Shown one piece after another: positions 40,676 to 60,940 of a stretch of DNA of 64,000 nucleotides (its first letter is position 1; the number at the start of each line of letters is the position of its first letter). Position numbers and translations under genes: made by a program. Origin of the DNA: Luteibacter sp. OK325 (GTDB taxonomy: Bacteria; Pseudomonadota; Gammaproteobacteria; Xanthomonadales; Rhodanobacteraceae); NCBI RefSeq assembly GCF_003050935.1, contig NZ_QAOX01000010.1, forward strand, positions 1 to 64,000, in the 5' to 3' direction. The notes beneath the pieces are model-generated. The model was not told the DNA's origin, made no database searches, and worked only from the letters and a program-made list of their open reading frames with translations.

Positions 40676-42034
40676 GTGGGCAAAGCAGCCAGGGACCCGA
40701 CGTGGTGGGTGCTCGTCATCGCCACGGCCGCCGCATTCGTGCTCAGGTATTGGTTTGTATCCACCGCCTGGATCGAGCATCCGGTGCGCGGGGACGCGCT
40801 GGACTACGTGTCCTATGCGGCAAACCTCATTCAGCACCACGTGTTTTCCGTGGCATCCGGCGGGGCGCCGGTCGTCCCGGACAGTTACAGGGACCCTGGG
40901 TATCCGACGTTCCTCGCGCCGTTCCTCGCCCTTATCCAGAACGCCGGCCTCAGGTATCGAACCCTGCAGACCGCCCAGGCATTACTGGGCGCGCTCACAG
41001 TCACAGCATATCTATGCCTCGCACGTCGCTGGCTCAGTATTCCCTGGCTCATCGTCACAGCCGTGCTACTCGCCATCTGGCCCCACTCGATCACTGCGCC
41101 GGCCTATTTGCTCAGCGAAACACTGCTTGGGTTTCTTGTCTCGGTCGCGCTGGCGACGGTCGCCAAGGGCGTTGCCGACGATCGCGCTGGACGGCTTGCC
41201 GCTGGCGGCCTGCTGTTCGGATGCGCCGCGCTGACCAACGCGGTCATGGCACCTTTTCTCCCTGTCGTGGCTGCCGCCGGATACCTGGCGCAACCGGCCC
41301 GGCGTCGGCAATGGATCATTCTTCTCGTCGCGTCGCTGGCGCTTCCGGGGCTGTGGGCGTTGCGAAATGCGGTCTCCGCCGAAGGCCCCGCGGCAAGCCA
41401 ACGTGCCATCACGAACCTCGTGCAAGGTTCCTGGCCCGAGTACCACAGTGCGTGGCTCGACAGCCTCTCGGGTGACCCGGCTGGCGTCGCCATGACTCGC
41501 CGCATCGATCACGAAGTCTCACTGGCCGTTCGTGACCGCGCCGCAGGCATGACTTCGCTCACCAATCGCCTGGGTGCGGAGCCGGGTAGATACGCCGCTT
41601 GGTACGCCTCGAAACCTGCGCTGCTCTGGAGCTGGAGCATGCGCATCGCAAGCGGACATATCTACGTCTTTCCGACCGTCGACTCACCGCTGGAGTCGAA
41701 CGATATAGCCTGGTACACCATGCAGGCTCTCGTGATGGCTAATCCGATCGTCGCGATCCTTGCGTTGCTCGGCTGCGTCGTTGTGATCATCGGTCGCGCC
41801 GATCGCCAGGCAAGCATGACGGCTGTCTTGCTGCTTTACGTTACAGCCGTCTACTCGGTGCTTCAGTCGGAACCACGGTATGCCGTGCCATTTCGAGGAG
41901 CCGAGATCGTCATGGCTGCCCTGGGAGCAGCATGGCTGAGCGCAGGCTTTCTTACCCTCTGGCGCAGGCGACTTGGGCACCTCGCCACTTCCGGAACCTC
42001 ATCCGCCGGGGCTGCCCCGAGGCGATCGGCATGA
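40676..42034 (+). CDS. Membrane glycosyltransferase, GT-C (ArnT/PMT-like), paralog A
   Basis: A 452-residue inner-membrane protein with about ten to eleven helices. After the first helix comes an acidic periplasmic loop GDALDY followed by SYRDPGYPTFLAPF, the layout of lipid-phosphate-sugar-dependent GT-C enzymes. The start is a GTG at 40676 with GGAGGGG just upstream. It overlaps its paralog by four bases (ATGA), and the pair leads into the first pilin gene. I infer transfer of a lipid-linked sugar to pilin or to a glycan. Confidence 0.78.
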   Translation: MGKAARDPTWWVLVIATAAAFVLRYWFVSTAWIEHPVRGDALDYVSYAANLIQHHVFSVASGGAPVVPDSYRDPGYPTFLAPFLALIQNAGLRYRTLQTAQALLGALTVTAYLCLARRWLSIPWLIVTAVLLAIWPHSITAPAYLLSETLLGFLVSVALATVAKGVADDRAGRLAAGGLLFGCAALTNAVMAPFLPVVAAAGYLAQPARRRQWIILLVASLALPGLWALRNAVSAEGPAASQRAITNLVQGSWPEYHSAWLDSLSGDPAGVAMTRRIDHEVSLAVRDRAAGMTSLTNRLGAEPGRYAAWYASKPALLWSWSMRIASGHIYVFPTVDSPLESNDIAWYTMQALVMANPIVAILALLGCVVVIIGRADRQASMTAVLLLYVTAVYSVLQSEPRYAVPFRGAEIVMAALGAAWLSAGFLTLWRRRLGHLATSGTSSAGAAPRRSA

Positions 42035-43404
42035 GTAGACAAAAAAAGCGGACGGCGTGGATCATCCTCGCCTGCACCCTTCTGGCCCTCGCCCTGCGCC
42101 TCTACTTTACAAATGTCGCCATAGTCGACAAACCGATCAGCGGCGATGCGCGCGACTACACCGCCTATGCGTGGAATCTCATCAATCACAGCGTTTTTTC
42201 CAGCGCCGCTCCCTCGCCGGCCAAACCTGTGCCGGATAGCTACCGCGATCCAGGTTATCCCGTTTTTCTTGCCGCAGTCGTCTCGGCCTTCCCCACAGGT
42301 TGGTACGGTGCCGTTCGCTGGATTCAATGCCTGCTAGGCGCCCTGACCGTGCTGGCGTTGCTCGCCGCCGCGAGGGACTGGCTGAGAGACGGCTGGCTGA
42401 TCGCGGCCGGCGTGTTGATGGCGGTATGGCCTCACTGCATCACTATTCCTACCTACATTCTCAGCGAAACGCTGTTCGGGTTTCTTGTCGCCATGGCGCT
42501 TGCCGCCACGAACGAAGCTATCCGACGCACCGATACGCGATGGGCATGCGCGGGGGGCCTCATGTTCGGCGCCGCGGCCCTGACCAATGCCGTGCTGATG
42601 CCGTTCGCACCGATGGTCGCTGCGATTTTCGCGTGGCGCTCGCCTACCGAGCGGCGTCAATGGCTCGCTCTTCTTCTGTGCGCTGTCATGTTGCCAGGGG
42701 CATGGTTGGCAAGGGGCGCAACCATCGATGCCGGCCAATCCGCCGGGCTCCGCGCATCCACGAACTTTGTCCAGGGGTCATGGTCGTCCTACCATGCTGC
42801 GGCGCACGGCGTAGCCGCTGGCGACGAGACCAGCAAGAGGATCATGGGCACGATCGATGGCGAAGTTGCCGAGATGGCCCGGGACCCATCCGCCGGCCTG
42901 CACGCCATTCTGGATCGGCTGCAGGCGACACCGCGAGACTCGATGTCGTGGTACCTGTCCAAGCCAGCACTCTTGTGGAGCTGGAATCTCCAGATCGCCT
43001 CCGGACATATCTATCCGTTTGCGACGTCCCACTCGCCCTTCCAGGTGCGCAACGCGCTCTATGCAATGACCCAGTTGCTGATTGCCATGAACGACTGGAT
43101 GGCCGCCGCCGCACTCGCTGGCTGCCTGGTCGTGGCGTTCCGCGGGGTCGGGGGGACGGCTTCTCTTTCGAGCATGCTGCTGCTCTATGTCACGGCTGTC
43201 TACGGCATTCTCCAGTCCGAACCGCGCTACGTCATCGCCTTCCGCGGAGAGGAAATCTTGCTGGCAGTCCTCGCAGTAGCGACGGCTACAAGGGCGATCT
43301 TCGAACCCAATGGACCTGTCCTAAGGCATTTTCGGAGAACGACGTCACGTTTCGGCAACGAAAAGGCAGGCGGGTTGGCCGATGGTATGGATCGTGCTGA
43401 GTGA
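42031..43404 (+). CDS. Membrane glycosyltransferase, GT-C (ArnT/PMT-like), paralog B
   Basis: A 457-residue paralog of the preceding protein. It has the same first-loop motif (GDARDYTAYAWNL), DSYRDPGYPVFLAA, YILSETLFGFLV, NFVQGSWSSYH and LQSEPRYVIAFRGEE at matching places. The pair is clearly a tandem duplication that has diverged. The start is the ATG at 42031, overlapping the previous stop. Its stop lies 27 bases before the first pilin gene, so co-transcription with that pilin is likely. Confidence 0.78.
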   Translation: MSRQKKRTAWIILACTLLALALRLYFTNVAIVDKPISGDARDYTAYAWNLINHSVFSSAAPSPAKPVPDSYRDPGYPVFLAAVVSAFPTGWYGAVRWIQCLLGALTVLALLAAARDWLRDGWLIAAGVLMAVWPHCITIPTYILSETLFGFLVAMALAATNEAIRRTDTRWACAGGLMFGAAALTNAVLMPFAPMVAAIFAWRSPTERRQWLALLLCAVMLPGAWLARGATIDAGQSAGLRASTNFVQGSWSSYHAAAHGVAAGDETSKRIMGTIDGEVAEMARDPSAGLHAILDRLQATPRDSMSWYLSKPALLWSWNLQIASGHIYPFATSHSPFQVRNALYAMTQLLIAMNDWMAAAALAGCLVVAFRGVGGTASLSSMLLLYVTAVYGILQSEPRYVIAFRGEEILLAVLAVATATRAIFEPNGPVLRHFRRTTSRFGNEKAGGLADGMDRAE

Positions 43405-43431
43405 CAGGAACACTCCGCCAAGAACCCGCCC

Positions 43432-43866
43432 ATGCTTCCGACCAAGCACGCCAACGGCTTCACTTTGATCGAACTCATGATCGTCGTCACGATCATCGCC
43501 ATCCTGGCGGCCATCGCCATCCCTGCTTATCAGGATTATGCGATTCGTGCCCAGGTGTCCGAGGGGATCAATCTCTCCACAGGTGCAAAAACAGCGGTGT
43601 GGGACTTCTTTGCGGATAAAGGTCGCCTTCCGGCGGCGAATGAATCCGCCGGCCTCGCAGCAGAAGGGTCGATCTCCGGAAAATACGTGTCGGGCGTTCG
43701 GGTAACCGATGGCGCGGTCACCGTCTTCTACGACACAACCAACGCCAACGCGCATGTGCAGTCCAGCGCTATCACACTCTCCCCCATCACTGGCCCCGGT
43801 GCCATTGCCTGGGTGTGCAAGGGATCACCCATGGAAAGCCGCTACCTTCCCACGGCTTGCCGATAA
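43432..43866 (+). CDS. Type IV pilin, first copy
   Basis: A 144-residue prepilin. A nine-residue basic leader ends in Gly before the cleavage site ([12 protein letters not shown], Glu at position 5 of the mature protein), followed by the hydrophobic assembly helix. The C-terminal cysteine pair WVCKG...TACR forms the D-region loop. The first 60 residues closely match the second pilin; the rest diverges strongly and the loop is different. Unlike the second copy it has no terminal Ser and no obvious promoter of its own. Confidence 0.93.
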
Positions 43867-44019
43867 CACAGTAGGAAGTGACGCTAAATGTCACCTTGTG
43901 ACGCGCAGTGTCATGACGCAGCACATTGAATATAGGCGGATTTCTCCTATTGCATGCGAGACGTGACACCCGGCACAATTCCGGCACGCGCAATATGAGG
44001 GAATATGCGCCGTCGGGTA

Positions 44020-44035
44020 TGGCATGCAAGATGCA
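44020..44035 (+). promoter_or_regulatory. Sigma-54 (RpoN) promoter of pilA
   Basis: The sequence TGGCATGCAAGATGCA matches the -24/-12 consensus TGGCACG-N4-TTGCA at all but two positions, with the required spacing between the GG and GC pairs. Pilin promoters of Pseudomonas and Xanthomonas are RpoN/PilR-dependent. It lies about 145 bases before the pilA ATG, in a 312-base gap between the pilin genes. Confidence 0.75.
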
Positions 44036-44178
44036 TTCGACAAACACGAGCTTCCTGGTCGTTCCTGACCACGTGAGTGAGAAAGGGGATCGGGGCCCTT
44101 CCTAGGGGGATCCGGTACCGGGGCTCAGGGGGCACCACAATCGGTTAGCTAACCACCTTTACATAGATAGGAATCGCC

Positions 44179-44619
44179 ATGAAGAACGTGCAGAAGGGCT
44201 TTACCCTGATCGAACTGATGATCGTTGTCGCGATCATCGCCATCCTGGCCGCCATCGCTATCCCGGCTTACCAGGACTACACCATCCGCTCGCAGGTCTC
44301 GGAAGGTCCGGTCCTCGCTGACGGCGCCAAGACGGCCGTTGCCGAGTTCTTCCAGAACACCGGTCGCTTCCCGCCGAACAATGAATCGGCTGGCCTTGCC
44401 TCGGCCGGCAGCATCAGCGGCCAGTACGTCAAGACCATCACGGTTGGTGCCAACACCGGCCTGATCACGGCTGCGTACGGTGGCCCGAAGGCCAGCACCA
44501 AGATCCCGGAGGCTTCGACGCTGGAGCTTTCGCCGATCACGAATGCCGGTTCGATCGCGTGGACCTGCAAGAGCACCACGATCAAGAGCAACTACCTGCC
44601 GTCGAACTGCCGCTCGTAA
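44179..44619 (+). CDS. pilA: Type IV pilin, probable major subunit PilA
   Basis: A 146-residue prepilin with a short leader MKNVQKG and the cleavage/assembly segment [19 protein letters not shown]. The D-region disulfide joins WTCK and NCRS. The own RpoN-type promoter, codon use rich in preferred codons and a strong terminator mark it as the highly expressed major subunit. It ends in a Ser right after the disulfide loop, the site at which TfpO-type enzymes glycosylate some Pseudomonas pilins. Confidence 0.95.
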
Positions 44620-44643
44620 TTCGAGCTGCATGCAGGACAAAAA

Positions 44644-44673
44644 AGGAGCCGCTCACGCGGCTCCTTTTTTTTT
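44644..44673 (+). terminator. Rho-independent terminator after pilA
   Basis: An AGGAGCCGC / GCGGCTCCT stem with a short loop, followed by T9, begins 25 bases after the stop. Confidence 0.93.
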
Positions 44674-44818: not shown

Positions 44819-46828
44819 ATGACCCCACGAAGCTACCTACGCCTCGCGCTCCTCGCCGCCCTTCTACTTGTTGCGTGGCTAGCCTACCGGCCGGGCCTGA
44901 GCGGTGGCTTTGTCTTCGACGACTTCGCGAATCTACCCGCCCTCGGCGAAACCGGGCCGATCGATAACGCGGCTGCTTTTGCCCGCTACATCACATCCGG
45001 CACCGCCGACCCCATCGGCCGACCGCTGGCCATGGCCAGTTTTCTGATCGACGCCCACGACTGGCCGGCACAGCCGGAGCCATTCAAGCGGTCGAACGTC
45101 ATCCTTCACCTCCTCAATTGTGCGCTGCTCTACGCATTGCTCCGTGCCTTCGGGCGCGCGTGGGCGCGTGGGGAATCCGAGGCCACCACGGCGACCCGCA
45201 TGGACTATGCGGCACTGATCGCCTCAGGCCTTTGGGCGCTTCATCCCCTCTTCGTTTCAACCACGCTGTACATCGTGCAGCGCGAGGCGATGTTACCGGC
45301 CACGTTCTGCCTGACTGGCCTCCTGGCATGGGTAAAGGCACGCCAACTGCTTGCCGAGGGACAAACCCGCGCCGGCGGCTTCATGGCCGTCGTCGCGATC
45401 GTGGGGTGCACATTGCTGGCGGCCCTGTCGAAAGCGAACGGACTGCTGCTGCCGTCCCTCATTCTGGTAGTCGAGGGCTTCTCGTTGCCGCCGGGGCCTC
45501 GGCCAGTTGGCCGGTCGGCAACCGTCTTCCGTGCGGCGTTAGCCGCGTGCTGGATCGCGACGGGAGCCATGGTCCTTGCACTTGTCTACCTGGCCTGGGC
45601 GGGCATCGTTCATGGGATCCCGCATCGTCCATGGACTGAAGCCCAACGGCTGCTCACCGAGCCTCGCATCGTCTGGCAATACCTCGGCCAGCTGTGGCTC
45701 CCCCATCCCTATACCGCAGGCGTCTTCAACGATACGACGGCGGTCTCGACGCATCTGTGGCGCCCGTGGACCACGTTCCTAGCGATCGCTGGCCTTGTCG
45801 TGCTGTGTCTGTTTGCATGGTTCGGCAGGCGTCTGTCGCCCGCGATTGCCGGGGCCATTCTGTTCTTTCTGACGGGTCATCTGCTCGAATCAAGCAGCGT
45901 GCCGCTTGAACTGTACTTCGAGCACCGGAACTATCTGCCGGCCCTGCTGATGTTCTGGCCGGCGGGCCTGTGGTTGGTCGGCGTCCCTATGAACCTTCGA
46001 GCCAGATCCGCGAAGCCCGTCTTTCCCTTGCTGCGAGTGCGCTATGCACTTACCGCCGTCCTGATCATGTCGATGGCAGGAATGACTTACGCCAATGCTT
46101 CCGTTTGGGGCGACAATGCACATCAGGGGACCTTGTGGGCTCGCCTTAACCCGACCTCCGCTCGCGCCCAGGTCACCGCCGCACAGGAAGAGATTCAGCA
46201 TGGGACGCCATCCCGAGCCATCGCGCGCCTGACGCCCCTACTCGCGGCCAAACCCGAGGAAGTGCAGATTGCGTTCAACCTGATCGCCGCGCATTGCCAG
46301 GCGAGTGATCTTTCCGAGACGGACATGGCGACCGCTCGCCGGGCATTGCACCTCACTCGCGATCCCGGCGCGCTCATCGCTGGCTGGTACGCACGCACCA
46401 TCCCAGTCGCTCAAGAAGGTGAATGCCCAGGCCTGTCGCTCGCTGGCCTCAAGGACCTCACTCAGGCGGGACTCGACAATCCGAACCTTCCGCCTGGGCG
46501 CAAACAGGATCTCGAACACGCGCTAGGCGAAATAGCGTTGGCGACGAATGATCCGAAGGCCGCCCTCCTTCATTTCAATCGCGGCCTCGAGCTGGATCCT
46601 CACGAAACCGTTGCCCTGCGCCAGGCAGCGGAACTCGGCTCGGCCGGCCACGCTGAACTCGGTCTCCAGCATCTCTCGGTATATGACAGCCTTCCCATTG
46701 CTGCCGATGCCACTGGCCCCGGCATGGCGACGGTTCACGCCTGGGTGCTACAACGCCAGGCTTACTGGCCCCGCGAACGGGCACGCCTCGTCGCCACACT
46801 GAAAGCAGATGCCGGAGTCAGCCCATGA
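44819..46828 (+). CDS. TMTC-like membrane glycosyltransferase/TPR protein, paralog A
   Basis: A 669-residue protein with about ten to eleven membrane helices and a C-terminal periplasmic TPR-like helical region from about 450 on (ALLHFNRGLELDPHETVALR). The first loop has GGFVFDDFANLP with the paired Asp of GT-C enzymes, then RPLAMASFLID and a later EHRNYLPALLMFW. This is the TMTC/PMT-like layout, linked to protein O-glycosylation. It overlaps its paralog by four bases and lies 200 bases after pilA. Confidence 0.78.
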   Translation: MTPRSYLRLALLAALLLVAWLAYRPGLSGGFVFDDFANLPALGETGPIDNAAAFARYITSGTADPIGRPLAMASFLIDAHDWPAQPEPFKRSNVILHLLNCALLYALLRAFGRAWARGESEATTATRMDYAALIASGLWALHPLFVSTTLYIVQREAMLPATFCLTGLLAWVKARQLLAEGQTRAGGFMAVVAIVGCTLLAALSKANGLLLPSLILVVEGFSLPPGPRPVGRSATVFRAALAACWIATGAMVLALVYLAWAGIVHGIPHRPWTEAQRLLTEPRIVWQYLGQLWLPHPYTAGVFNDTTAVSTHLWRPWTTFLAIAGLVVLCLFAWFGRRLSPAIAGAILFFLTGHLLESSSVPLELYFEHRNYLPALLMFWPAGLWLVGVPMNLRARSAKPVFPLLRVRYALTAVLIMSMAGMTYANASVWGDNAHQGTLWARLNPTSARAQVTAAQEEIQHGTPSRAIARLTPLLAAKPEEVQIAFNLIAAHCQASDLSETDMATARRALHLTRDPGALIAGWYARTIPVAQEGECPGLSLAGLKDLTQAGLDNPNLPPGRKQDLEHALGEIALATNDPKAALLHFNRGLELDPHETVALRQAAELGSAGHAELGLQHLSVYDSLPIAADATGPGMATVHAWVLQRQAYWPRERARLVATLKADAGVSP

Positions 46829-48801
46829 TGTGGCGCAACGTCGGACACCATATGTCGCGCCCATGGGTCATCTTCTGCCTGGGATTGGTCGTCACTGTTG
46901 TTGTCTATTGGCCCGGCCTCTCAGGAACGTGGCTGTTCGACGACTATCCGAACATCGTCGACAACGTTGGGGTTCATCCCAAAAGCTGGAGTATTCCAGA
47001 CCTTGTCAGCGCAGCGCTTTCTTCACCGGCGAGCGATTTCAAACGCCCCCTGGCCTCGCTGAGCTTTGCCATCAACTACCTCATCACGGGCGCCAATGCG
47101 CCTGCGATGAAGTTCACGAACCTGTGCATCCATTTACTCAACGGCTTCGCGGCCTTCCTCTTCCTCAGGTCGCTCCTGCGCGCAGCAGGCGAAGATCGGC
47201 CGGACTCGACGGTCAGCGATCGCAAAGCGGCACTCATAGCGGCCGCATGGCTGGTGCTGCCAATCAACGTATCCTCTGTGCTGTACGTGGTGCAGCGCAT
47301 GGAGAGCATGGCTAATCTCGCTGTGCTGCTCGGTCTTTGGGGCTACGTGGCCGGACGTCGACGTATGCTCGGCGAAAAGCGTTACGGATGCCTTCTTGCC
47401 GCAGGTAGCGTGCTGGGTGCAACCGCCATCGGGGCGTTGGCGAAAGAAACAGCTGTCATGCTTCCGCTGTACGCCTTCCTGATCGAATGGTTCGTGTTCC
47501 GAGGCCACAGCTCGAGTGCGCGTGGCCACGCCATTGACCGGCGCGTTGCAGGCTTCTTCGTCGTTTTTCTTCTGATCCCCATGACGGCCGGCGCTATATG
47601 GCTACTGCCGGGCCTGCTGAATCCGTCCACCTGGGTCACGCGTGATTTCACGTTGTCGACCCGACTGTTGAGCGAGGGACGCATCGTCCTTGACTACATT
47701 GCGTGGACGCTCATTCCCACTCCCGGCGCGCTCTCGTTTTACCACGACGACTTTGTCGTTTCGCAGGGCTTGCTCTCACCCGTCACGACCGCCCTGTCAC
47801 TTGCTGGCATCGTCGCCCTGCTCTGCGTATCGCTCTGGCTACGGAAACGGCTCCCGCTGGCAGGGCTTGGCATTGCCCTGTTCTTCGGCTGCCATCTGCT
47901 GACTGGAACGGTGCTGCCGCTCGAACTGGTGTATGAGCATCGCAACTATTTTCCGAGCCTGGGTCTTCTGCTCACCCTTCTGGTCACGCTCACGGCCGTT
48001 CCCCCGTCGCGCGCACTTGCCCAGACTCTCGCGCGGCTCTGCCTTGGCCTGTTTGCGCTGCTTTGGCTCTTCATCACGTGGTCGACCGCGGAAGCCTGGG
48101 GCAACCCACTATCGCTCGCACGTGAACTCGCTTTCAGGGCGCCGGACTCGCCGCGCGCGCAATACGAGTTGGGTCGCACCTACATCATCTACTCAAACTA
48201 TGATCCGACCTCGCCATTCATTCCGCTCGTGTATGAGCCACTGGAACGGGCGGCACGAGTTCCTGGGTCGTCGATCCTGCCGGAGCAGGCGCTTATTTTC
48301 ATGACGTCGAGAATGCACCTTCCCGTCAAGGACGCTTGGTGGGACAGCATTGATGACAAGTTGAGAAAGCATCCTGCGACGATCCAGGATGAAAGTTCAC
48401 TTGACGCCCTGGCCCAGTGCCTCCGTCAGACGGCGTGCACCTTCCCACCCGAGCGCCTCTACGGCGCATTCGGTGCAGCACTTTCGCATGAGCGGCGCAG
48501 CCCACGCCTTTTGGCCATGTATGCCATGTTCGCCTGGGACACCATCAAGGACAAGCAACTCGCGTATCGCGTACAACGCGAAGCGGTTGCGGGTGCGCCC
48601 CGCGAGAGCGCCTATCGCATCGGTCTTGCCCGTTTCGCCATACAGCTGGGCGATCAGCAGGAGCTTGCTAGACAGATCAGCGAGCTCCAGACCATGAATG
48701 TTGGCGGCCGCCTCGGTGCCGATCTCGCGCCACTGCAGAATGCCTACACACGAATGGCACCGGCCAAGTGCGCGTCCACGAGTTCATCATGCGAGTATTG
48801 A
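46825..48801 (+). CDS. TMTC-like membrane glycosyltransferase/TPR protein, paralog B
   Basis: A 658-residue paralog of the preceding protein. Matching motifs are GTWLFDDYPNIVDN, FKRPLASLSFAINYL, ALAKETAVMLPLYAFLIEW and VYEHRNYFPSLGLLLTLL, with a divergent C-terminal helical half. The start ATG overlaps the previous stop (ATGA). It may act on a different acceptor or sugar from paralog A. The flippase gene starts 12 bases before its end, so all three are probably one operon. Confidence 0.76.
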   Translation: MMWRNVGHHMSRPWVIFCLGLVVTVVVYWPGLSGTWLFDDYPNIVDNVGVHPKSWSIPDLVSAALSSPASDFKRPLASLSFAINYLITGANAPAMKFTNLCIHLLNGFAAFLFLRSLLRAAGEDRPDSTVSDRKAALIAAAWLVLPINVSSVLYVVQRMESMANLAVLLGLWGYVAGRRRMLGEKRYGCLLAAGSVLGATAIGALAKETAVMLPLYAFLIEWFVFRGHSSSARGHAIDRRVAGFFVVFLLIPMTAGAIWLLPGLLNPSTWVTRDFTLSTRLLSEGRIVLDYIAWTLIPTPGALSFYHDDFVVSQGLLSPVTTALSLAGIVALLCVSLWLRKRLPLAGLGIALFFGCHLLTGTVLPLELVYEHRNYFPSLGLLLTLLVTLTAVPPSRALAQTLARLCLGLFALLWLFITWSTAEAWGNPLSLARELAFRAPDSPRAQYELGRTYIIYSNYDPTSPFIPLVYEPLERAARVPGSSILPEQALIFMTSRMHLPVKDAWWDSIDDKLRKHPATIQDESSLDALAQCLRQTACTFPPERLYGAFGAALSHERRSPRLLAMYAMFAWDTIKDKQLAYRVQREAVAGAPRESAYRIGLARFAIQLGDQQELARQISELQTMNVGGRLGADLAPLQNAYTRMAPAKCASTSSSCEY

Positions 48802-51979: not shown

Positions 51980-53016
51980 GGGGCTGGTGCCTTTGTAGCT
52001 ACAACTACGAGTTCGTCCGCGTGGCGAACACTGACCGTCGCGAGAAGGTCGGACGCCAACGAAAACAACGCAGCCGTGATGGACGCATAGCGAAGACCAC
52101 GCTGACCGCGCTCACGCGCGATCTGCGCGCTTCTACGATAAAGGCGTCCGGTATGCACGCCCCTGCGCAGAGGTTCCACATGCGAAAACCCGGCGTCGCG
52201 GCACGCGGCGAGAAGCACGTCGAGTGCGGGCAGGCTCAGGTGCCGCGGCGCGTCATAACTCTCCCAGTGCAGGCCATAAAAACGGGCCCCCAGCGACGAA
52301 GGGTTGGGCAGGCCCATCCAAACGGTACCGCCGGGAGCCAGCATCGCGTGGACATCCCGAAGCATCGACCGGGGGTCGGGCACGTGCTCGAGACAATGAC
52401 TCATCGTCACGGCATCCCAATAATCTCTCTGGCGGGTCGCACCCAGATCGGACACAAAACCTTGAGTGACTGGGATGCCGCGGTCAAGGCAAGCCGCTAC
52501 GGCAGCGGTGTCTGGGTCCAGACCCTCTGCATTCCAGTTCATGGAACGCGCAAGCGCTACGAAGTCGCCGTTCCCGCAACCGATGTCCAGGAGGCGCCCG
52601 CCGCGTCCCGGCGGCAGATGCCGGCCATAGTAGTCAAGCTTGAGCCGAAGCGGCGCCAGGACGGAAAAGAACGCGAATCCCAAAGAAGATGACGGCGAGC
52701 GATGCATCCCGAATCGGCGATTGAGGTATCCGTCGATGAGTGAGGTCAACCAGCCAGCTCGCCGCGGCGCAGCGGGCGGGCGATGCGTGACGTAGTCAAA
52801 ATCATAGGCGGCCGGCAGCGAGGCATCATCTGGGCGAGGATCGAGCCACGCGGTAGCGCACGATTCGCAATGCCACAACATCCATGGGTCGGTTCCGTTG
52901 ACCATGGCATCCCGAGCCACACCGATGGGATCGCGACGGGCCTGTCCACACATGGGACACCGGGGCACCGCTGTCACGTCGCCGCGGGACCACCGATCAC
53001 CGTTCGTCGCGCTCAC
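51976..53016 (-). CDS. Class I SAM-dependent methyltransferase with zinc-knuckle, paralog B
   Basis: A 346-residue paralog of the preceding methyltransferase with the same order. It has the Cys4 knuckle (CPMCG, CESCA), WLDPRPDDASLP, PLRLKLDYYGRHLPPG, motif I LLDIGCGNGDF and SHCLEHVPDPRSML. The N-terminal half is well conserved between the two and the C-terminal third less so, which may mean different substrates. Its stop overlaps the next start by four bases (ATGA). Confidence 0.84.
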   Translation of the reverse strand: MSATNGDRWSRGDVTAVPRCPMCGQARRDPIGVARDAMVNGTDPWMLWHCESCATAWLDPRPDDASLPAAYDFDYVTHRPPAAPRRAGWLTSLIDGYLNRRFGMHRSPSSSLGFAFFSVLAPLRLKLDYYGRHLPPGRGGRLLDIGCGNGDFVALARSMNWNAEGLDPDTAAVAACLDRGIPVTQGFVSDLGATRQRDYWDAVTMSHCLEHVPDPRSMLRDVHAMLAPGGTVWMGLPNPSSLGARFYGLHWESYDAPRHLSLPALDVLLAACRDAGFSHVEPLRRGVHTGRLYRRSAQIARERGQRGLRYASITAALFSLASDLLATVSVRHADELVVVATKAPAP

Positions 53017-53948
53017 TTTGCCTCCCTCGACATACCCGTCTTCACACCTTTCCAGATCATGGAAAATTGTTCGCTGCGCCTCGAATCACTTGCCATCACG
53101 ACGAGTGCTGTCAGCATCATCTTCACGATTGCCCACGCCTTCCAAACGACCGGAACGTAACCGCGCCGCAAAAGCCAGACCGTGTTCCGATAAAGGTAAA
53201 AGTGTCGCAACGGGCTGCGCTCCGGCCAGACCCGCCAGCCGAACAGCCATATCCGCCGCCCGCGCTCCCCCATCCGATGGTCGAACGACAGCCACGGAAT
53301 GCCGAACAACCCGTAGGCGCGTGACGTCACGCGGAACGACCACTCGGTATCAACATGGTCGATGAACATCGCGCCGTCCAGGTCTCCAATGCGATCGACC
53401 AGTTCCAACATCATCGTCGTTCCGCTGCCATTGAGATTGGCGAGCGGAAACGGCGCAGCGTCAGGACCGGGATAAGCGCGCGACCATCGCCAGCCGTGCT
53501 CGATGTAGTGGAATCCGTGCGCCAGCCCCGTTCCGGGATCGAGAAGTACGGGTCCCACGCAGCAGAGGGTGCCGGTCATGGCCTGCACCTGATTCAGGGC
53601 GGCCACCAACCCGGCAGGCGTTTCAACCGGGAACGCGGAGTCCTGATCGAGCAGCAGCACCGCGCGACATGGCGTCTCCATCGACCTGGCGCGTGCGATG
53701 CCAACATTGAGGGCTGCCGCAAGGCCGATATTGTCGGCGTTCTCGATCAGCTCGACGCGCTCCACCCGTCCCACGAGCTCACGCACGGCATCACGGGCTG
53801 CGGGCGTCGAGGCATTGTCGACGACGATGATTCGCCCGACCTCACGTAGTGAAAGTAGCTGCCGTTCGAGCAGAGCGAGATCGGGATTGAATGTGACGGT
53901 GACCGATGCGAGCTCATTGACATCAACCGGGCGCCTATCAGTCGCCAT
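53013..53948 (-). CDS. GT2 glycosyltransferase (rhamnosyltransferase-like)
   Basis: A 311-residue GT-A enzyme with SVTVTFNPDLALLERQL, IIVVDNASTPAA, NIGLAAALNVGI, LLLDQDSAFP (DxD) and FIDHVDTEWSFR, a pattern close to RfbF/WsaF-type rhamnosyltransferases. A basic, hydrophobic C-terminal stretch (YRNTVWLLRRGYVPVVWKAW) suggests membrane contact. I use the ATG at 53948, which overlaps the upstream gene by 11 bases; a longer frame runs inside that gene. Confidence 0.86.
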   Translation of the reverse strand: MATDRRPVDVNELASVTVTFNPDLALLERQLLSLREVGRIIVVDNASTPAARDAVRELVGRVERVELIENADNIGLAAALNVGIARARSMETPCRAVLLLDQDSAFPVETPAGLVAALNQVQAMTGTLCCVGPVLLDPGTGLAHGFHYIEHGWRWSRAYPGPDAAPFPLANLNGSGTTMMLELVDRIGDLDGAMFIDHVDTEWSFRVTSRAYGLFGIPWLSFDHRMGERGRRIWLFGWRVWPERSPLRHFYLYRNTVWLLRRGYVPVVWKAWAIVKMMLTALVVMASDSRRSEQFSMIWKGVKTGMSREAK

Positions 53949-55083
53949 CGGAAAGCTCCATGGCACGCCGAATGCCGGCGCCGAACCGGGCCCATGCGAA
54001 TCGTTTCGCAAAAGCCTTGCATCCGTCTGCGAATGTGGAACGCCCTGACGCGAGGACATTCTTCACCGCGCCGGAAAATGCCTCCGTATCTCCCGCCGGA
54101 ACGAGAAAGCCCGAAACGCCCTCGGCGATCGCATCCGGCACACCACCGACGGCATAGGCAACAGTCGGAAGGCCGTGTGCGGCTGCTTCGATCGCAACCA
54201 TGCCAAAGCCTTCAATGTCTCCCTGGGTGGCCTTGACCGGAAACACAGCGACATCAGCGGCCGCATAAGCGCAATCGAGTGCTTCATCGGGCAACTCGCC
54301 ATACATCGCTATGTTGTCCTGGAACCCCATCGCGACAGCATGCTGGTTCACAGCTTCCCTGATGCCTTGACGCCCCTGGTTCAGAGCATCCGGCGCGTCG
54401 TTGCCCACCACGGCCAGGAGAAGTGACGGATCATCCGCCAGCAAGCGAGGCAACACATCGGTGACGAAATCGAGCAAGCCTTTGCGCTCCGTCAGGCGAC
54501 CTACGCAGAGGAGTACCCGGCGACCTGTCCAGCCGCGACTCGCGCGAAACGCTTCGACGGCATCGGTGTCAGGCGGAGCCGTGGGGATCATCACGCCGGG
54601 GTGGACGATGTGAATTCTGTCGGCCAGCACGCCGGCTTCGCGCGCGAGGCCAGCCGTGTTCGCGCTATTGGCAATACAGACGTCGCAGCGGCGAATGAAA
54701 GGTAGCCAGAGCAAGCGATAAATAGGGCTTTTCGTGACGATGTCGAGGCCGTGCACGTAGACCACTGCCCGCGCTCCGACCATGCGGGAGGTCAACCACA
54801 CGATAGGTGCGCACAATCCACTTCCGGCCAGTACATGCGACGGTCGCACCGATCGTGCGAGTCGCAATGAGCCGATGAGCGATTCTGCGAAGAACCGCCA
54901 GAGCGGTTTCAAGGTACATGTGACGACGCGCGAAGCGGCTGACAGAACGACGTCGCTCCCGCGTGGTCCGACGACATCGACCGGTATACCGAGCGCAAGC
55001 TCCTGGACCAGATGCAGATTCAACCTTTCCATTCCGCCGCGAAGGGGCGGCAGGTTACGTGTAACTAGCAGGACGCGTTCCAC
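53938..55083 (-). CDS. GT4 family glycosyltransferase
   Basis: A 381-residue retaining GT-B enzyme. The N-terminal domain has the glycine-rich LPPLRGGMERL, and the C-terminal domain has VGRLTERKGLLDFV and the E-x7-E site EGFGMVAIEAAAHGLPTVAY followed by GGVPDAI. It adds a sugar from a nucleotide donor to the growing lipid-linked glycan. Six bases separate it from the methyltransferase before it. Confidence 0.92.
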   Translation of the reverse strand: MERVLLVTRNLPPLRGGMERLNLHLVQELALGIPVDVVGPRGSDVVLSAASRVVTCTLKPLWRFFAESLIGSLRLARSVRPSHVLAGSGLCAPIVWLTSRMVGARAVVYVHGLDIVTKSPIYRLLWLPFIRRCDVCIANSANTAGLAREAGVLADRIHIVHPGVMIPTAPPDTDAVEAFRASRGWTGRRVLLCVGRLTERKGLLDFVTDVLPRLLADDPSLLLAVVGNDAPDALNQGRQGIREAVNQHAVAMGFQDNIAMYGELPDEALDCAYAAADVAVFPVKATQGDIEGFGMVAIEAAAHGLPTVAYAVGGVPDAIAEGVSGFLVPAGDTEAFSGAVKNVLASGRSTFADGCKAFAKRFAWARFGAGIRRAMELSDGD

Positions 55084-55089
55084 GCGGGC

Positions 55090-55818
55090 TTACTCCCCTG
55101 CCCGCCCGCAATAGTGATAAACCTGATATTGCCAGTCCATTGGCCAGATCGCGAGCGATAGTGCCTGCAGGGCACGCACGGGCCAGGTCCACCACTTGCC
55201 GTGGACGATCCAGCGCCAGCTGAGGGGGTGAAGGTCACGGCGATGGCGGTGCACGGACAGACCCGCCGATTCGAAGAGAGATCCCCACACGTCTAGGGAC
55301 ATCACGTCTTCCTTGACCTTGACCTGATGCGTACCGCCATAGAGACCGAGGCGTCGGCTCAGGAAGCCGGCGTTGGGTACCAGCAGCAGGAACTGTGCGC
55401 CTGTTCGCGACACACGGATCATTTCCCGAAGCGCCGCCGGCTTGTCGACGAAGTGCTCCAGCGATCCCATGCAGGTGATGACGTCAAAGCTGGCATCCGG
55501 AAAAGGCAGCCTCTCGGCGGGTCCAGCGTGGAAAGCGCCCTGCGGATATGCTGCACGGCACGCGTCGATCGCACGACCGGATAGATCGACCCCGCTGATG
55601 CTGCGCGCTCCCATCTTGGCGAAATGGCCCAACCAGACACCCGTCCCACATGCGACGTCGAGGACGTCACCTCCGGAAACCCTGGTCAGTTCGCGTGCCG
55701 CCAGGCGGCAATGCCAGGGCAGCGGATGCTGGCTGGGTCGCGCGCCGTAGTATTCGTCATCGTAGAACTCACGAATATGGTCAAGCTGCTGGCTTTCGTC
55801 TGCATCGATGGGGGTCAT
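55090..55818 (-). CDS. Class I SAM-dependent methyltransferase
   Basis: A 242-residue methyltransferase_11-type enzyme with motif I VLDVACGTGVWLGHFA, the acidic GVDLSGRAI and CMGSLEHFVDKPAAL. A C-terminal hydrophobic stretch is near WKTW-like aromatic residues. It is not closely related to the two zinc-knuckle methyltransferases of the same operon. The ATG at 55818 overlaps the stop of the GT2 gene (ATGA), so the longer frame is ignored. Confidence 0.86.
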   Translation of the reverse strand: MTPIDADESQQLDHIREFYDDEYYGARPSQHPLPWHCRLAARELTRVSGGDVLDVACGTGVWLGHFAKMGARSISGVDLSGRAIDACRAAYPQGAFHAGPAERLPFPDASFDVITCMGSLEHFVDKPAALREMIRVSRTGAQFLLLVPNAGFLSRRLGLYGGTHQVKVKEDVMSLDVWGSLFESAGLSVHRHRRDLHPLSWRWIVHGKWWTWPVRALQALSLAIWPMDWQYQVYHYCGRAGE

Positions 55819-56684
55819 CGCTGTGCGCTCCCGTCCGTGGGTCGGTACGTCAGCGAGGTGATTTGCTCGGACACCAGCCCGATCAGGAAAACGATCACGG
55901 CCGCGCTCCACATCAACGCGCTGCCATTGGTGAGGCGTCCCTCAGTCAGGAACGTGCGCGCGTAGTTCGCGCATCCCAGGAAGAAAAACAGTGCGCTTGC
56001 CGGGAAGAATAGCTTCAACGGCGAATACAACGTCGCAATCTTGAAGATGATCAGGAGAAAGCGCACGCCATCCTTCAGTGGCTTGATGTGGCTCTTGCCG
56101 ACTCGCTGTCCTGCCTTGATTGGTTCATAGGCCACGCCGTATGCGCTCCGGAAAAACGCCATAGTGCTGGTAGTCGGATAAGAAAAGCCGTTCGGCAAAA
56201 GATGAATGAATTCGCGGAAGCGGCTTGCGCGGGCCACGCGAAAGCCAGAGGTCAGGTCGGCCACAGCCTGACCCGTCATCTTGCTGGCAAGCCAGTTGTA
56301 AACCGTATTGGCCACCCCGCGACCGACGCCCGCTTGGCTCTCCCAGTCGCGGGCGCCGACCACCATGTCATAGCCCTGGTCCAGCCGCGCCAGCAGGCGG
56401 TCGATGTCGACCGGATCATGCTGGCCGTCCCCATCCATGAATACCAGGACCTCCGCTGTCGCCGCGCGGGCCCCACGCTTGATCGCTGCCCCATTGCCCA
56501 TCGAATAGGGCGAAGAAAGGCAGATAACATCCGACGCCGCGCACACGGCACGCGTGTCGTCGGTGGACCCGTCGTCCACCACGATGATCTCGGCGCCCGG
56601 CTGGGCGGCGGTCAGGCGGGGCAAAAGGTCTCGCAGTGCGGCCGCCTCGTTCTTGGCGGGCAGGATAATGCTGATACGGCTCAA
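55815..56684 (-). CDS. GT2 glycosyltransferase, polyprenyl-phosphate-sugar synthase type
   Basis: A 289-residue enzyme with an N-terminal GT-A domain close to dolichyl-phosphate mannose synthase (IILPAKNEAAALRDLL, IIVVDDGSTDDTRAV, FMDGDGQHDP, DLTSGFRVARASRF) and two C-terminal membrane helices. It would load a sugar onto undecaprenyl phosphate, the donor needed by GT-C enzymes such as the ArnT- and TMTC-like proteins of this locus. It is the first gene of the operon and is divergent from pilB. Confidence 0.9.
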   Translation of the reverse strand: MSRISIILPAKNEAAALRDLLPRLTAAQPGAEIIVVDDGSTDDTRAVCAASDVICLSSPYSMGNGAAIKRGARAATAEVLVFMDGDGQHDPVDIDRLLARLDQGYDMVVGARDWESQAGVGRGVANTVYNWLASKMTGQAVADLTSGFRVARASRFREFIHLLPNGFSYPTTSTMAFFRSAYGVAYEPIKAGQRVGKSHIKPLKDGVRFLLIIFKIATLYSPLKLFFPASALFFFLGCANYARTFLTEGRLTNGSALMWSAAVIVFLIGLVSEQITSLTYRPTDGSAQR

Positions 56685-56854: not shown

Positions 56855-58579
56855 ATGGCTTCACAAATGCAGGCGCCGATGCTGGCAGGTCTGACGGGTA
56901 TGGCACGCCGGTTAGTCACCGAGGGCGTCTTGCCCGAGGCGGACGTGCGCAAGGCGGTCCAGGACTCGGCGGAAAAGCGGGTCTCGCTGTCCTCCTGGCT
57001 GGTGGATCACAACCTTGTGGACAGTCCGAGACTGTCCCAGGTGGCATCGTCCGAGTTCGGCATGCCGCTGATGGACATCGGGAACATGGTCCCGGCCAAC
57101 ATGCCGTTGGACCTGGTTACCGAGGCACTCATCTCCAAGCACCAGGCCCTGCCCCTGTTCAAGCGCGGCAAGCGCCTGTTCGTCGGCATTGCCGATCCGA
57201 TGCAGTCGCATGCGCTGGACGAGATCAAGTTCCACTCGAACCATATGGTCGAGCCGGTGCTGGTCGAGCGCAGCCAGCTGCGTCGGATCATCGATAGCGC
57301 CCTCGCCTCGATGAATTCGCAGGTCTCTGGTTACGAGGACGGCACGCTCGACGAGCTGTCCCTCGAAGGCGGCGACGATGAAGGCGAAACGACTGGCATC
57401 GACGCCACAGCCGGCGACGACGCCCCGATCGTCAAGTTCGTCAACAAGATCCTGGTCGACGCGATCAAACGCGGTGCCTCGGATATCCATTTCGAACCTT
57501 TCGAAACGGTCTACCGCGTGCGCCTGCGCATGGACGGCATCCTGCGCGTGGTCGCCACGGCGCCGATCAAGCTGGGCAACCGCTTCGCCTCGCGCCTGAA
57601 GGTGATGAGCGGCCTGGATATCGCCGAGCGGCGCATTCCGCAGGACGGCCGCATCAAGCTCAACCTGACCAAAACCCGGGCGATCGACTTCCGCGTGAGC
57701 ACCCTGCCGACCCTGTTCGGCGAGAAGATCGTGCTGCGTATTCTCGACGGATCCTCGGCCAAACTGGGCATCGACAAGCTCGGCTACGAAGAAGTCCAGA
57801 AGAACCTCTACCTCGACGCTATCGAAAAGCCTTACGGCATGGTGCTGGTCACCGGTCCGACCGGCTCCGGTAAGACGGTCTCGTTGTACACGGCTCTCAA
57901 CATCCTCAACACCGAGGGGCGCAACATCTCCACGGTGGAAGACCCGGTCGAAATCCGCGTCGAAGGTATCAACCAGGTCCAGCAGAACGTCAAACGCGGC
58001 ATGACCTTCGCCGCCGCCCTGCGCTCGTTCCTGCGCCAGGATCCGGACGTGATCATGGTCGGCGAAATCCGCGACCTCGAGACCGCCGAGATTGCGGTCA
58101 AAGCGGCGCAGACAGGTCACATGGTCCTTTCGACCCTGCACACCAACGACGCACCACAGACCATTGCCCGCCTGATGAACATGGGCATTGCGCCCTACAA
58201 CATCATTTCGTCGGTCACCCTGATCATCGCCCAGCGCCTGGCCCGCCGCCTGCATGACTGCAAGCGAGAGATCGTCCTGCCCGCGACCGCGCTGCTAGCC
58301 GAAGGTTATACCCAGGAAGAAATCGATACCGGCTTCAAGGTTTACGAAGCCGTCGGCTGCGACAGCTGCAACGAGGGCTATAAGGGTCGCGTGGGCATCT
58401 ACCAGGTCATGCCGATGGTCGAGGACATCCAGAAGATCGTCCTGGAGGGCGGCAATGCCATGCAGATCGGCGAAGTGGCCCGCAGGAACGGCATCAATGA
58501 CCTCCGCGCGTCCGCCCTGCTCAAGGTCCGCAATGGCATGACCAGCCTGGCCGAGATCAACCGGGTTACCAAGGACTGA
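56855..58579 (+). CDS. pilB: Type IV pilus assembly ATPase PilB
   Basis: A 574-residue hexameric extension motor. An N-terminal T2SSE_N (MshEN-type) domain, often a c-di-GMP binding site in relatives, covers about 1-160. The ATPase domain has Walker A GPTGSGKT, an Asp box FLRQDPDVIMVGEIRD and the His box STLHTNDA. A zinc knuckle is visible (HDCKRE, CDSCNEGYKG). It starts pilB-pilC-pilD-coaE. Confidence 0.97.
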   Translation: MASQMQAPMLAGLTGMARRLVTEGVLPEADVRKAVQDSAEKRVSLSSWLVDHNLVDSPRLSQVASSEFGMPLMDIGNMVPANMPLDLVTEALISKHQALPLFKRGKRLFVGIADPMQSHALDEIKFHSNHMVEPVLVERSQLRRIIDSALASMNSQVSGYEDGTLDELSLEGGDDEGETTGIDATAGDDAPIVKFVNKILVDAIKRGASDIHFEPFETVYRVRLRMDGILRVVATAPIKLGNRFASRLKVMSGLDIAERRIPQDGRIKLNLTKTRAIDFRVSTLPTLFGEKIVLRILDGSSAKLGIDKLGYEEVQKNLYLDAIEKPYGMVLVTGPTGSGKTVSLYTALNILNTEGRNISTVEDPVEIRVEGINQVQQNVKRGMTFAAALRSFLRQDPDVIMVGEIRDLETAEIAVKAAQTGHMVLSTLHTNDAPQTIARLMNMGIAPYNIISSVTLIIAQRLARRLHDCKREIVLPATALLAEGYTQEEIDTGFKVYEAVGCDSCNEGYKGRVGIYQVMPMVEDIQKIVLEGGNAMQIGEVARRNGINDLRASALLKVRNGMTSLAEINRVTKD

Positions 58580-58723: not shown

Positions 58724-59989
58724 ATGGCCATTGCCACCGCCACCAAGAACACGCGCGCCGTGGGCGTTGCTCGTGCCCAAGTAAGCAAGCTCATATCCTA
58801 CGACTGGACTGCCCTGGACAAGCGCGGCAAGCGCATGAAGGGAGAGATGCAGTCGAAGAACGCCGCGCTGGTCAAGGCGGAACTGCGTCGCCAGGGGATG
58901 AACCCCCAGACAGTACGCGAGAAGTCCAAGCCCCTGTTCGGCTCGGCCGGCAAGACGGTCAAGCCACGCGACGTCGCGATCTTCAGCCGCCAGATCGCCA
59001 CCATGATGGCCTCGGGTGTGCCGATGGTCCAGGCTTTCGACATCATCATCGATGGCCAGAAGAACCCTCGCTTCAAGAACATCCTGATCGATGTGAAGAC
59101 CGGTATCGAGGGCGGCTCGTCGCTGCACGAGGCCCTGGGCCAACACCCGGTGCAGTTCGATGAGCTCTACCGTAACCTGGTCCACGCGGGCGAGTCCGCC
59201 GGTGTACTGGATACGGTGCTCGACACGGTGGCGACCTATAAGGAGCGCATGGAGAGCATCAAGGCAAAGATCAAGAAGGCCTTGTTCTATCCGCTCATGG
59301 TGATGGTCGTTGCCCTGCTGGTCTCGTCGATCCTGCTGCTCTTCGTCGTTCCGGTGTTCCAGCAAACCTTCAAGGATGCTGGTGCCCAGCTTCCCGCTCC
59401 GACCCAGTTCGTGGTGTCGGCTTCGGAGTTCATGCAGGCGTACTGGTGGTTGGTATTGATCTCCATCGTCGGCGGCGTCACGGTCCTAATCCAGGGCAAG
59501 AAACGCTCCCCGAAGTTCGCCCATTTCCTCGAACGAGTCATGCTCCGACTGCCCGTCATGGGCGCCATCATGCATCAGTCGGCGATCGCCCGATTCGCGC
59601 GCACCCTCGGCGTGACCTTCCATGCGGGTGTGCCGCTGGTCGAGGCGCTGGAAGCGGTCGCCGGCGCGACGGGCAGTGTCATTTACGGCGAAGCCATCAT
59701 GCAGATGCGCGACGACATCGCCGTGGGTCACCAGCTTCAGCTGGCCATGCGACAGACCAGCCTGTTCCCGAACATGGTGGTGCAGATGACGGCGATCGGC
59801 GAGGAGTCAGGCTCGCTCGACCACATGCTGTTCAAGGTGGCCGAGTTCTACGAAGAAGAAGTCAGCAACGCGGTGGACAACCTGGCCACGCTGCTCGAGC
59901 CCATGATCATGGTCATCCTCGGCGTCCTCGTCGGCGGCATGGTCATCTCCCTCTACCTGCCCATCTTCAAGCTGGCCGGTACGGTCTGA
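58724..59989 (+). CDS. pilC: Type IV pilus inner-membrane platform protein PilC
   Basis: A 421-residue protein with two T2SSF domains (FSRQIATMMASGVPMVQAFD, ARTLGVTFHAGVPLVEALE) and three membrane helices, including LMVMVVALLVSSILLLFVVPV and the C-terminal LLEPMIMVILGVLVGGMVI. It is the motor platform for the pilus. It lies 144 bases after pilB and is followed by an intrinsic terminator before pilD. Confidence 0.97.
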   Translation: MAIATATKNTRAVGVARAQVSKLISYDWTALDKRGKRMKGEMQSKNAALVKAELRRQGMNPQTVREKSKPLFGSAGKTVKPRDVAIFSRQIATMMASGVPMVQAFDIIIDGQKNPRFKNILIDVKTGIEGGSSLHEALGQHPVQFDELYRNLVHAGESAGVLDTVLDTVATYKERMESIKAKIKKALFYPLMVMVVALLVSSILLLFVVPVFQQTFKDAGAQLPAPTQFVVSASEFMQAYWWLVLISIVGGVTVLIQGKKRSPKFAHFLERVMLRLPVMGAIMHQSAIARFARTLGVTFHAGVPLVEALEAVAGATGSVIYGEAIMQMRDDIAVGHQLQLAMRQTSLFPNMVVQMTAIGEESGSLDHMLFKVAEFYEEEVSNAVDNLATLLEPMIMVILGVLVGGMVISLYLPIFKLAGTV

Positions 59990-60021
59990 CCTCTTCGCGC
60001 CCGCGCCATGCACAATAGGAA

Positions 60022-60051
60022 CCCTTCGCCCTTGCGGGCGGAGGGTTTTTT
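60022..60051 (+). terminator. Rho-independent terminator between pilC and pilD
   Basis: A ten-base stem CCCTTCGCCC / GGGCGGAGGG (one G-T pair) with a TTGC loop, followed by T6, lies 20 bases before the pilD ATG. It should uncouple pilD-coaE from pilBC at least in part. Confidence 0.85.
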
Positions 60052-60070
60052 CTTGGATCACGGATTGCCC

Positions 60071-60940
60071 ATGCTCGATTTACCCCTTGCCCTCTGGATC
60101 GGTGTCGCCGGCGTCTTCGGCCTGCTGGTCGGCAGTTTCCTCAACGTGGTAATCCTGCGGGTGCCCGAGCGCATGCAGGCGGACTGGCGCAAGCAGGCGC
60201 GCGAGGTGCTCGAGATCGAGGCACCCGAGGAGCCGCGGCCGCCGGGGATCGTGGTCGAAGGCTCGCATTGCCCGAAGTGCAAGCACGCGCTTGCCGCCCG
60301 CGACAATATCCCGGTGTTCGGCTGGCTGTTGCTACGTGGCCGTTGCCGATACTGCCGTGAGCCGATCTCGGCGCAGTACCCGCTGGTGGAGCTGCTCACG
60401 GGACTGGCCAGCGCCGCCGTCGTCTGGCGGTTCGGGCCGACCATCGGGGCCCTCGCCGGCCTGGTGATGACGTACTTCCTGATCGCCTTGTCCGGCATCG
60501 ACGCCCGCACCCAGTTCCTCCCGGACGAGCTCAACTACCCCCTGCTCTGGATCGGCCTGGGCCTGGCCCTGATCCCGGGCTGGCAAGCGCTGCCGGTATC
60601 GCCTTCCTCGGCCATCCTCGGCGCCCTGATCGGCTACCTCAGCCTGTGGAGTGTGTACTGGCTGTTCAAGCTGCTCACCGGCAAGGAAGGCATGGGTCAC
60701 GGCGACTTCAAATTGCTCGCCGCGCTCGGCGCGTGGCTAGGCCCGGTGGCCTTGCTGCCGATCATCATGCTGTCGTCGCTGATCGGCGCGCTGGTCGGCG
60801 GGAGCCTGATGGTGTTCCGCAAGCATCAGCGCGAAGTACCGATTCCTTTCGGCCCTTATCTCGCGGCGGCCGGCTGGGTCTGGCTGATGTTCGGCGACTC
60901 GCTCCTCTCCGGCTACATGCACCTGACGGGGCTGCAATGA
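60071..60940 (+). CDS. pilD: Prepilin peptidase and N-methyltransferase PilD
   Basis: A 289-residue aspartic membrane protease that cleaves prepilin leaders and methylates the new N-terminal Phe. The large cytosolic loop has two CxxC pairs (CPKCKHAL, CRYCREPIS). The catalytic Asp residues lie in GIDARTQFLPD and GMGHGDFKLLAA. I use the ATG at 60071, which precedes the first helix; the longer frame starts inside the terminator region. It overlaps coaE by four bases. Confidence 0.96.
   Translation: MLDLPLALWIGVAGVFGLLVGSFLNVVILRVPERMQADWRKQAREVLEIEAPEEPRPPGIVVEGSHCPKCKHALAARDNIPVFGWLLLRGRCRYCREPISAQYPLVELLTGLASAAVVWRFGPTIGALAGLVMTYFLIALSGIDARTQFLPDELNYPLLWIGLGLALIPGWQALPVSPSSAILGALIGYLSLWSVYWLFKLLTGKEGMGHGDFKLLAALGAWLGPVALLPIIMLSSLIGALVGGSLMVFRKHQREVPIPFGPYLAAAGWVWLMFGDSLLSGYMHLTGLQ

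Follow-up and report, generated by a model that had tools for sequence, protein, structure and literature searches.

The locus at positions 40676-60940 of a 64,000-nucleotide stretch of DNA from the soil bacterium Luteibacter sp. OK325 (contig NZ_QAOX01000010.1, positions 1 to 64,000; hereafter the window) most probably encodes a pilin O-glycosylation system of the TfpW/TMTC type, as read from genome comparisons, in which the sugar donor is conserved, a transferase is matched to the pilin and the glycan cassette can be exchanged. Its central components are pilin 2 (44179..44619, plus strand; PF00114 and N_methyl matches), the proposed acceptor; TMTC_E (E; 44819..46828, plus strand), with a predicted GT-C membrane domain and a TPR-like C-terminal domain, proposed as the pilin-matched transferase; its paralogue TMTC_F (F; 46825..48801, plus strand), proposed as a constant partner; and DPMS_N (55815..56684, minus strand), a predicted polyprenyl-phosphate-sugar synthase and the conserved donor enzyme. 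E lies directly downstream of the pilin 2 gene, 199 bases away, and the E and F genes overlap by 4 bases. For the chemistry, the sugar, the O-linkage and its sites, a complex between E and F, and the steps that follow loading by DPMS_N (elongation, flipping, transfer and addition by GTC_A/B), we infer the following route. At the inner face of the membrane, DPMS_N would transfer a sugar from a nucleotide donor to undecaprenyl monophosphate. The glycosyltransferases GT4_L, GT2_K and GT2_H may then extend the lipid-linked sugar, which the methyltransferases M, J and I may cap, and Wzx_G would flip the lipid-linked glycan. Once in the periplasm, the sugar or short glycan would be transferred to a serine or threonine of pilin 2, perhaps also of pilin 1, by the E/F pair, of which E is fitted to the pilin and F stays constant; assembly by PilB/PilC would follow. 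Finally, GTC_A/B may add more sugars from polyprenyl-phosphate donors.

In nearly all of the family loci examined, E/F-type genes are linked to pilins, and the linkage extends to other classes. Loci were picked by their TMTC-like GT-C genes, E or F, and not by their pilins, so that finding a pilin there was not built into the selection. An E/F-type gene (the E query also matches F-type genes, and 'E' in the family counts therefore means E/F-type) occurs in 160 of the 197 family genomes, with all 26 genera represented. In each of the 40 loci fetched from these 160 genomes a pilin lies less than 1 kb from the E/F-type gene; an F-type match is present in 39 of them and the upstream S9 peptidase in 37. 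When the F profile was run against named genomes, the best 80 of at least 542 relatives came mainly from Rhodanobacter, Dyella, Luteibacter, Frateuria and Oleiagrimonas, together with Solimonas, Stenotrophobium and Luteimonas. A pilin was found within 1 kb in 74 of these 80 loci, at least 18 of which share sequence with the first 40 family loci. Across the class, where 86 of 321 genomes have a relative, 40 loci chosen for long contigs were examined: a pilin lies within 350 bases in 32, and a DPMS_N relative (54-66% identical) is present in 34, less than 3 kb from the TMTC gene in 31. The phylum-wide search gave a match in 23 of 299 genomes, and the 16 loci fetched from them comprise 13 from other classes, with a pilin within 60 bases in 11, and three further class loci, with a pilin in two. 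An earlier note on this DNA, which had described a glycan export and transfer module inside the pil locus, had named poor linkage to the pil genes as grounds for abandoning it; the linkage is kept, in counts that exceed chance.

Not all of the module is conserved. The core consists of a pilin, a TMTC-type GT-C protein and DPMS, while flippase, GT2/GT4 enzymes and methyltransferases are a variable add-on. In the 197 family genomes E/F-type genes and DPMS occur together in 155, E/F alone in 5, DPMS alone in 6 and neither in 31; presence or absence of the two thus agrees in 186 of 197 genomes (Fisher p 5e-25, with no correction for kinship), in a table compiled by eye in which 5 of the 11 discordant genomes are less than 90% complete. 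In the window's own genome there is a single E/F pair and a single close DPMS. The unit is smaller in several class loci, two of which lie near the minimum: one (L215) holds a pilin, a TMTC gene, a 427-residue TMTC frame, an unassigned 237-residue frame, DPMS, pilB, pilC, pilD and coaE, and the other (L197) a pilin, TMTC and DPMS with abutting ends, so that neither a flippase nor a further transferase is required in the locus. Conversely, in two family genomes that have neither E/F nor DPMS (G004 and G044; loci L249 and L252), pilB, pilC and pilD follow directly after the pilin. DPMS_N carries a GT2 domain (PF00535, 94 bits) and two hydrophobic segments detected by a hydropathy script, in keeping with a polyprenyl-phosphate-sugar synthase, which has a GT2 domain and C-terminal membrane segments, and its PDB relatives are undecaprenyl-phosphate aminoarabinose transferase, dolichol monophosphate mannose synthase and sll0501. 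Its best NCBIfam match is AglJ (101 bits, cut-off 325). AglJ belongs, with AglP, AglR and AglB, to archaeal Agl N-glycosylation, in which a methylated glycan on a monophosphate lipid carrier is flipped by a Wzx-like protein; the Luteibacter locus differs from it in that DPMS_N scores far under the cut-off for AglJ, an AglB was not seen among its genes, and the proposed target is a pilin and not an S-layer protein.

The variable cassette sits between F and DPMS, and its sugar-building genes differ among species. Among the best 80 F loci, 19 are complete in that they span F to pilB, a gap of 4.2 to 9.6 kb. DPMS_N is present in all 19 at a median identity of 80.7% to that of the window, and so is F (52.7%), the loci having been drawn from F-chosen ones; pilB is 78.8% identical in the 15 loci of enough length, and the best E match 33.2%. 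The remaining cassette genes are patchy. The cassettes hold sugar genes, namely those for GT4 and GT2 enzymes and methyltransferases, and further a DegT aminotransferase cluster seen in 10 loci, a gene resembling asparagine synthase, and flippases, each cluster name resting on one scanned representative. A flippase was recognised in at least 11 of the 19: seven are Wzx_G-like (L085, L091, L105, L109, L119, L124 and L140) and four were found by Pfam (L110, L117, L123 and L139). The asparagine synthase-like gene at L109:13405-15339, within a pilin glycan cassette, is possibly a sugar amidotransferase. Since these patchy genes resemble those of surface polysaccharides, the glycosyltransferases, methyltransferases and flippase could instead make an O-antigen or exopolysaccharide, their position in the pil locus being incidental. 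We regard this as unlikely, because DPMS_N is always present in the 19 F-to-pilB loci and DPMS is gained and lost with E/F, and because no Wzy_C protein was found on the window contig and four lie on other contigs of the genome. The latter result also upholds the earlier note, which had recognised no PglL or O-ligase with a Wzy_C domain. Of the genes in the module that it described, the TMTC-type GT-C and DPMS belong with the pilin to the conserved core, the flippase, GT2/GT4 and methyltransferase genes vary, and the GTC_A/B pair is optional in relatives (an A-type match occurs in 5 of the 19 complete loci).

E and F are paralogues with 31% identity, and E has a TPR match. Both carry positions like the DD (after the first helix), RP, QR, K(E) and E/DHRxY of the eukaryotic TMTC O-mannosyltransferases, whose motifs M1-M7 are set out in Table 4 of PMC7801869; the KE motif is retained in F and in a second, alternative type of E. 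The F model is confident, with a predicted local distance difference test score (pLDDT) of 84.5. In its full-length form it gave Foldseek results dominated by TPR matches, STT3 subunits appearing from rank 7 on, and a separate, likewise confident model was therefore made of the GT-C part of E (residues 1-441, pLDDT 89.9). The nearest solved folds of this domain are the oligosaccharyltransferase subunits STT3, AglB and PglB (best E-value 7e-5). A GT-C fold is predicted for E and F, and their DD, RP, QR, K and HR positions are conserved. When E or an E/F profile was searched against PDB sequences (best 60 of 61 for the profile), TPR proteins led the results, with no GT-C enzyme among the matches listed. 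Could E and F be pilin accessory or assembly factors, that is, TPR scaffolds comparable to the assembly help proposed for TfpY-like proteins? The TPR-like C-terminal domain would suit such a role, and so would the main type of E, which lacks the KE glutamate, most E having K-A-N or K-P-N instead. Nevertheless, the predicted GT-C fold with its conserved positions, the frequent pairing of E/F with a polyprenyl-phosphate-sugar synthase and the homology of E/F to a protein in the position of TfpW, described below, make such a role in place of transfer very unlikely.

Is a pilin glycosyltransferase already known within this family? In a genus of 25 genomes (5.5-7.2 Mb), three carry an E/F relative at E <= 1e-10, two of them directly after a pilin and the third at a contig end. 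Directly after the pilin of genome G807 come an open frame of 657 codons, with about 11 hydrophobic segments, and then a TfpX/TfpZ-family protein. The 657-codon protein aligned to the E and F profiles with hhalign E-values of 1.5e-11 and 3.5e-8 (probabilities 97.4 and 95.0, respectively), and hmmsearch gave it 36.7 and 29.4 bits, while 50 shuffled versions reached at most 1.8 and 0.7 and one reversed version -2.0 and -0.8. By these profile comparisons it is a remote homologue of E/F. G807 is probably Pseudomonas PA7, and on this basis and that of the adjoining TfpX/TfpZ-family gene its pilin neighbour is probably TfpW. According to PMC11841053, genes for accessory proteins lie downstream of the pilin gene, PA7 encodes TfpW and a 244-residue TfpX, and TfpW is reported to add D-arabinofuranose to pilins; a branch of the E/F family therefore probably has a known pilin glycosyltransferase. 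The earlier note had known of no described system with such a layout; TfpW is a described protein and probably a relative. Its suggestion that the TMTC-like proteins do the transfer is favoured by the motifs, the predicted GT-C fold, the homology to the protein in the TfpW position and the covariation of E with the pilin.

In other genomes of the same 25-genome genus the neighbour of the pilin is mostly a different gene. A CptA/EptA-like phosphoethanolamine transferase adjoins the pilin at L327:7016-8755 (G819), and the pilin-adjacent slot may thus host other pilin-modifying enzymes. At L329:4847-6799, L330:6283-8211 and L335:4157-6070 related copies of a single membrane protein (49-57% identical) adjoin the pilin; the copy at L329, the one that was scanned, has a sulfatase/phosphodiesterase domain.

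E varies together with the adjacent pilin. We assembled 98 loci with E, F and a pilin, of which 88 also have the peptidase and 72 remained after removal of near-identical E; 66 of the 72 could be typed, 42 with main-type and 24 with alternative-type E. In the 72 loci, E distances follow those of the pilin next to it (partial Mantel 0.71, p 0.001, given the peptidase), F distances show no such relation (0.02, p 0.43), and E and F distances track one another (0.41). The covariation stems largely from matched types, since main-type E goes with one pilin group and alternative E with other pilins: pilin identity is 64% within the main-type-E group, 45% within the alternative-E group and 44% across, and the peptidase is 72% identical in all three comparisons. 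Within alternative-type E the covariation stays at 0.69. We read these distances as a sign that matched pairs of E and pilin are exchanged while F and the donor stay constant. The absence of covariation in F would fit E/F glycosylating another periplasmic or surface target, such as minor pilins, lipid A or other proteins, and not the major pilin; yet E does covary with the pilin, also within the alternative type, and a pilin is the E/F neighbour in most loci examined, so that such a target is very unlikely. As regards the sites on the pilin, serine or threonine is conserved at columns 34, 63, 71, 111 and 118 of mature pilin 2 and may be structural there. A C-terminal pilin serine, as used in the TfpO style, was rejected as a general site, as 26 of 184 pilins end in serine or threonine.

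Several results weigh against our reading of the locus as a pilin O-glycosylation system. No pilin was found in 8 of the 40 class loci, 2 of the 13 other-class loci, 1 of the 3 further class loci and 6 of the 80 F loci, although three of the last six start at or near a contig end. The two genera that provide 11 of the 13 other-class loci narrow that sample, and a DPMS relative lies less than 3 kb away in only 5 of the 16 phylum-search loci, two of these at 21% identity. A third family genome without E/F and DPMS (G014; L250) has about 3 kb between pilB and the pilins. With a flippase recognised in at least 11 of 19 cassettes, this step is not part of the core. The fold scores are modest (template modelling scores of 0.40-0.47 for nine matches with E <= 0.001), and Pfam TMTC/DUF1736 was not among the E or F matches up to E 10, with the HMMER filters on. 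Covariation within main-type E is weak, at 0.20 (p 0.009) and, given F, 0.14 (p 0.052). Finally, because E adjoins the pilin, co-transfer could mimic co-adaptation, though F adjoins E too.

A more specific proposal, which we put forward tentatively and think somewhat less likely to be true than false, is that E and F together make up a heteromeric protein O-glycosyltransferase of a non-WaaL kind, which would transfer polyprenyl-monophosphate-linked glycans, E being fitted to the pilin and F to a constant first sugar set by DPMS_N. TfpW would be one branch of a widespread class, and species would diversify their pili by swapping E-pilin pairs and cassette while keeping donor and F.

How does the system compare with those already described? 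Like E/F, TfpW, the D-arabinofuranosyltransferase of P. aeruginosa group IV pilins, is a GT-C protein encoded as a pilin accessory gene, and the probable TfpW of G807 stands directly after the pilin. In G807, however, no DPMS match was seen within about 4.5 kb of the pilin, which has pilB as its immediate neighbour on the other side, and the TfpX/TfpZ-family gene follows, whereas the Luteibacter locus has two paralogues, DPMS and a glycan cassette; the presence of DPMS suggests a donor other than the D-arabinofuranose donor of TfpW. The eukaryotic O-mannosyltransferases TMTC1-4 likewise have a GT-C domain followed by TPR and similar motifs (compared through the motif table of PMC7801869), and dolichyl-phosphate-mannose is proposed there as their donor, so that use of a polyprenyl-phosphate sugar would be shared; E/F differ in having no Pfam TMTC match, no KE glutamate in main-type E and another target. 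TfpO/PilO, TfpM, PglS and PglL also transfer a lipid-linked glycan to pilin, and the pilin-specific classes are often encoded near their target (PMC12645811). All known members are said in that 2025 review to bear an O-antigen ligase domain, but no Wzy_C or O-antigen ligase domain was found in E, which has TPR matches only, or in F, which has one sub-threshold match to an unrelated family. The review lists TfpO, TfpM, PglS and PglL, states that all known members have domains of the WaaL type, and mentions neither TfpW nor TMTC in its main text. In the open-licence literature, no publication on pilin-linked TMTC-type proteins with a sugar-phosphate synthase was among the matches listed.

The gene content of the locus was verified by an open reading frame (ORF) map and family scans, which found the glycan genes named in the earlier note between a peptidase gene and pilB-pilC-pilD. 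The conserved upstream border is an S9 prolyl oligopeptidase-family gene (38445..40538, minus strand; PF00326), which 37 of 40 and 66 of 80 relatives also have. All on the plus strand, there follow the GT-C pair GTC_A (40676..42034, with the GTG start of the earlier note) and GTC_B (42031..43404), pilin 1 (43432..43866; PF00114 and N_methyl), pilin 2 as the next gene upstream of E, the E/F pair and the Wzx-type flippase Wzx_G (48768..50042; PF01943, Polysacc_synt, 43.7 bits). For GTC_B, whose ORF opens at 41932, the ATG overlapping the stop of A was selected as start; it is PMT_2-like (PF13231), scoring 22.3 bits alone and 25.9, or 26.3 with in-frame neighbours, in a genome search (cut-off 26.1). 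GTC_A has no Pfam match at 0.001 and is labelled GT-C because it is a paralogue of B (47% identical). GTC_A/B-type genes occur in three or four copies, flanking the peptidase gene on both sides, in L045 and in L049 and L140 (same genome).

A tightly packed minus-strand run, N-M-L-K-J-I-H, begins beside pilB and terminates against Wzx_G. After DPMS_N it comprises the methyltransferase MT_M (55090..55911, true start probably ~55818; PF08241), GT4_L (53938..55083; PF00534 and PF13439), the rhamnosyltransferase-like GT2_K (53013..54059, true start probably ~53948; PF00535), the methyltransferases MT_J (51976..53016) and MT_I (50897..51979), both PF13489 and 39% identical, and GT2_H (50023..51087, true start probably ~50907; PF13641 25.8 bits and PF00535 20.4 bits, both slightly under cut-off). 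Two rhamnosyltransferase-like GT2 enzymes had been named earlier; K fits this description with a TIGR01556 score slightly under cut-off (189.5 of 200.55 bits), and H, which has weak EpsD/GlfT1 matches, does not. The plus strand then carries the assembly ATPase pilB (56855..58579; PF00437 and PF05157), the platform protein pilC (58724..59989; PF00482) and the prepilin peptidase pilD (60008..60940; PF06750 and PF01478), followed by a reading frame that we take to be coaE-like. Scanning 43300-45000 for sigma-70 promoters and terminators detected nothing. A sigma-54-like site lies at 44020-44035, about 140 bases upstream of pilin 2, its pattern occurring at chance frequency in the window (34 found, 31.95 expected). 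Next to the pil locus, positions 31000-39000 have a lower G+C content (0.57-0.64) and hold a short AAA ATPase gene, a HEAT-repeat protein and ORFs without a Pfam match.

If the locus is indeed a pilin O-glycosylation system, a large group of type IV pili would be glycosylated by a transferase class missing from the 2025 O-oligosaccharyltransferase scheme, as set out in the main text of PMC12645811. The probable TfpW would be joined to a broad family that resembles the eukaryotic TMTC enzymes, and the existence of a variable gene slot beside pilin genes would be explained in part. The family would also offer a natural experiment on acceptor recognition, in which E and the pilin change together and F and DPMS_N stay.

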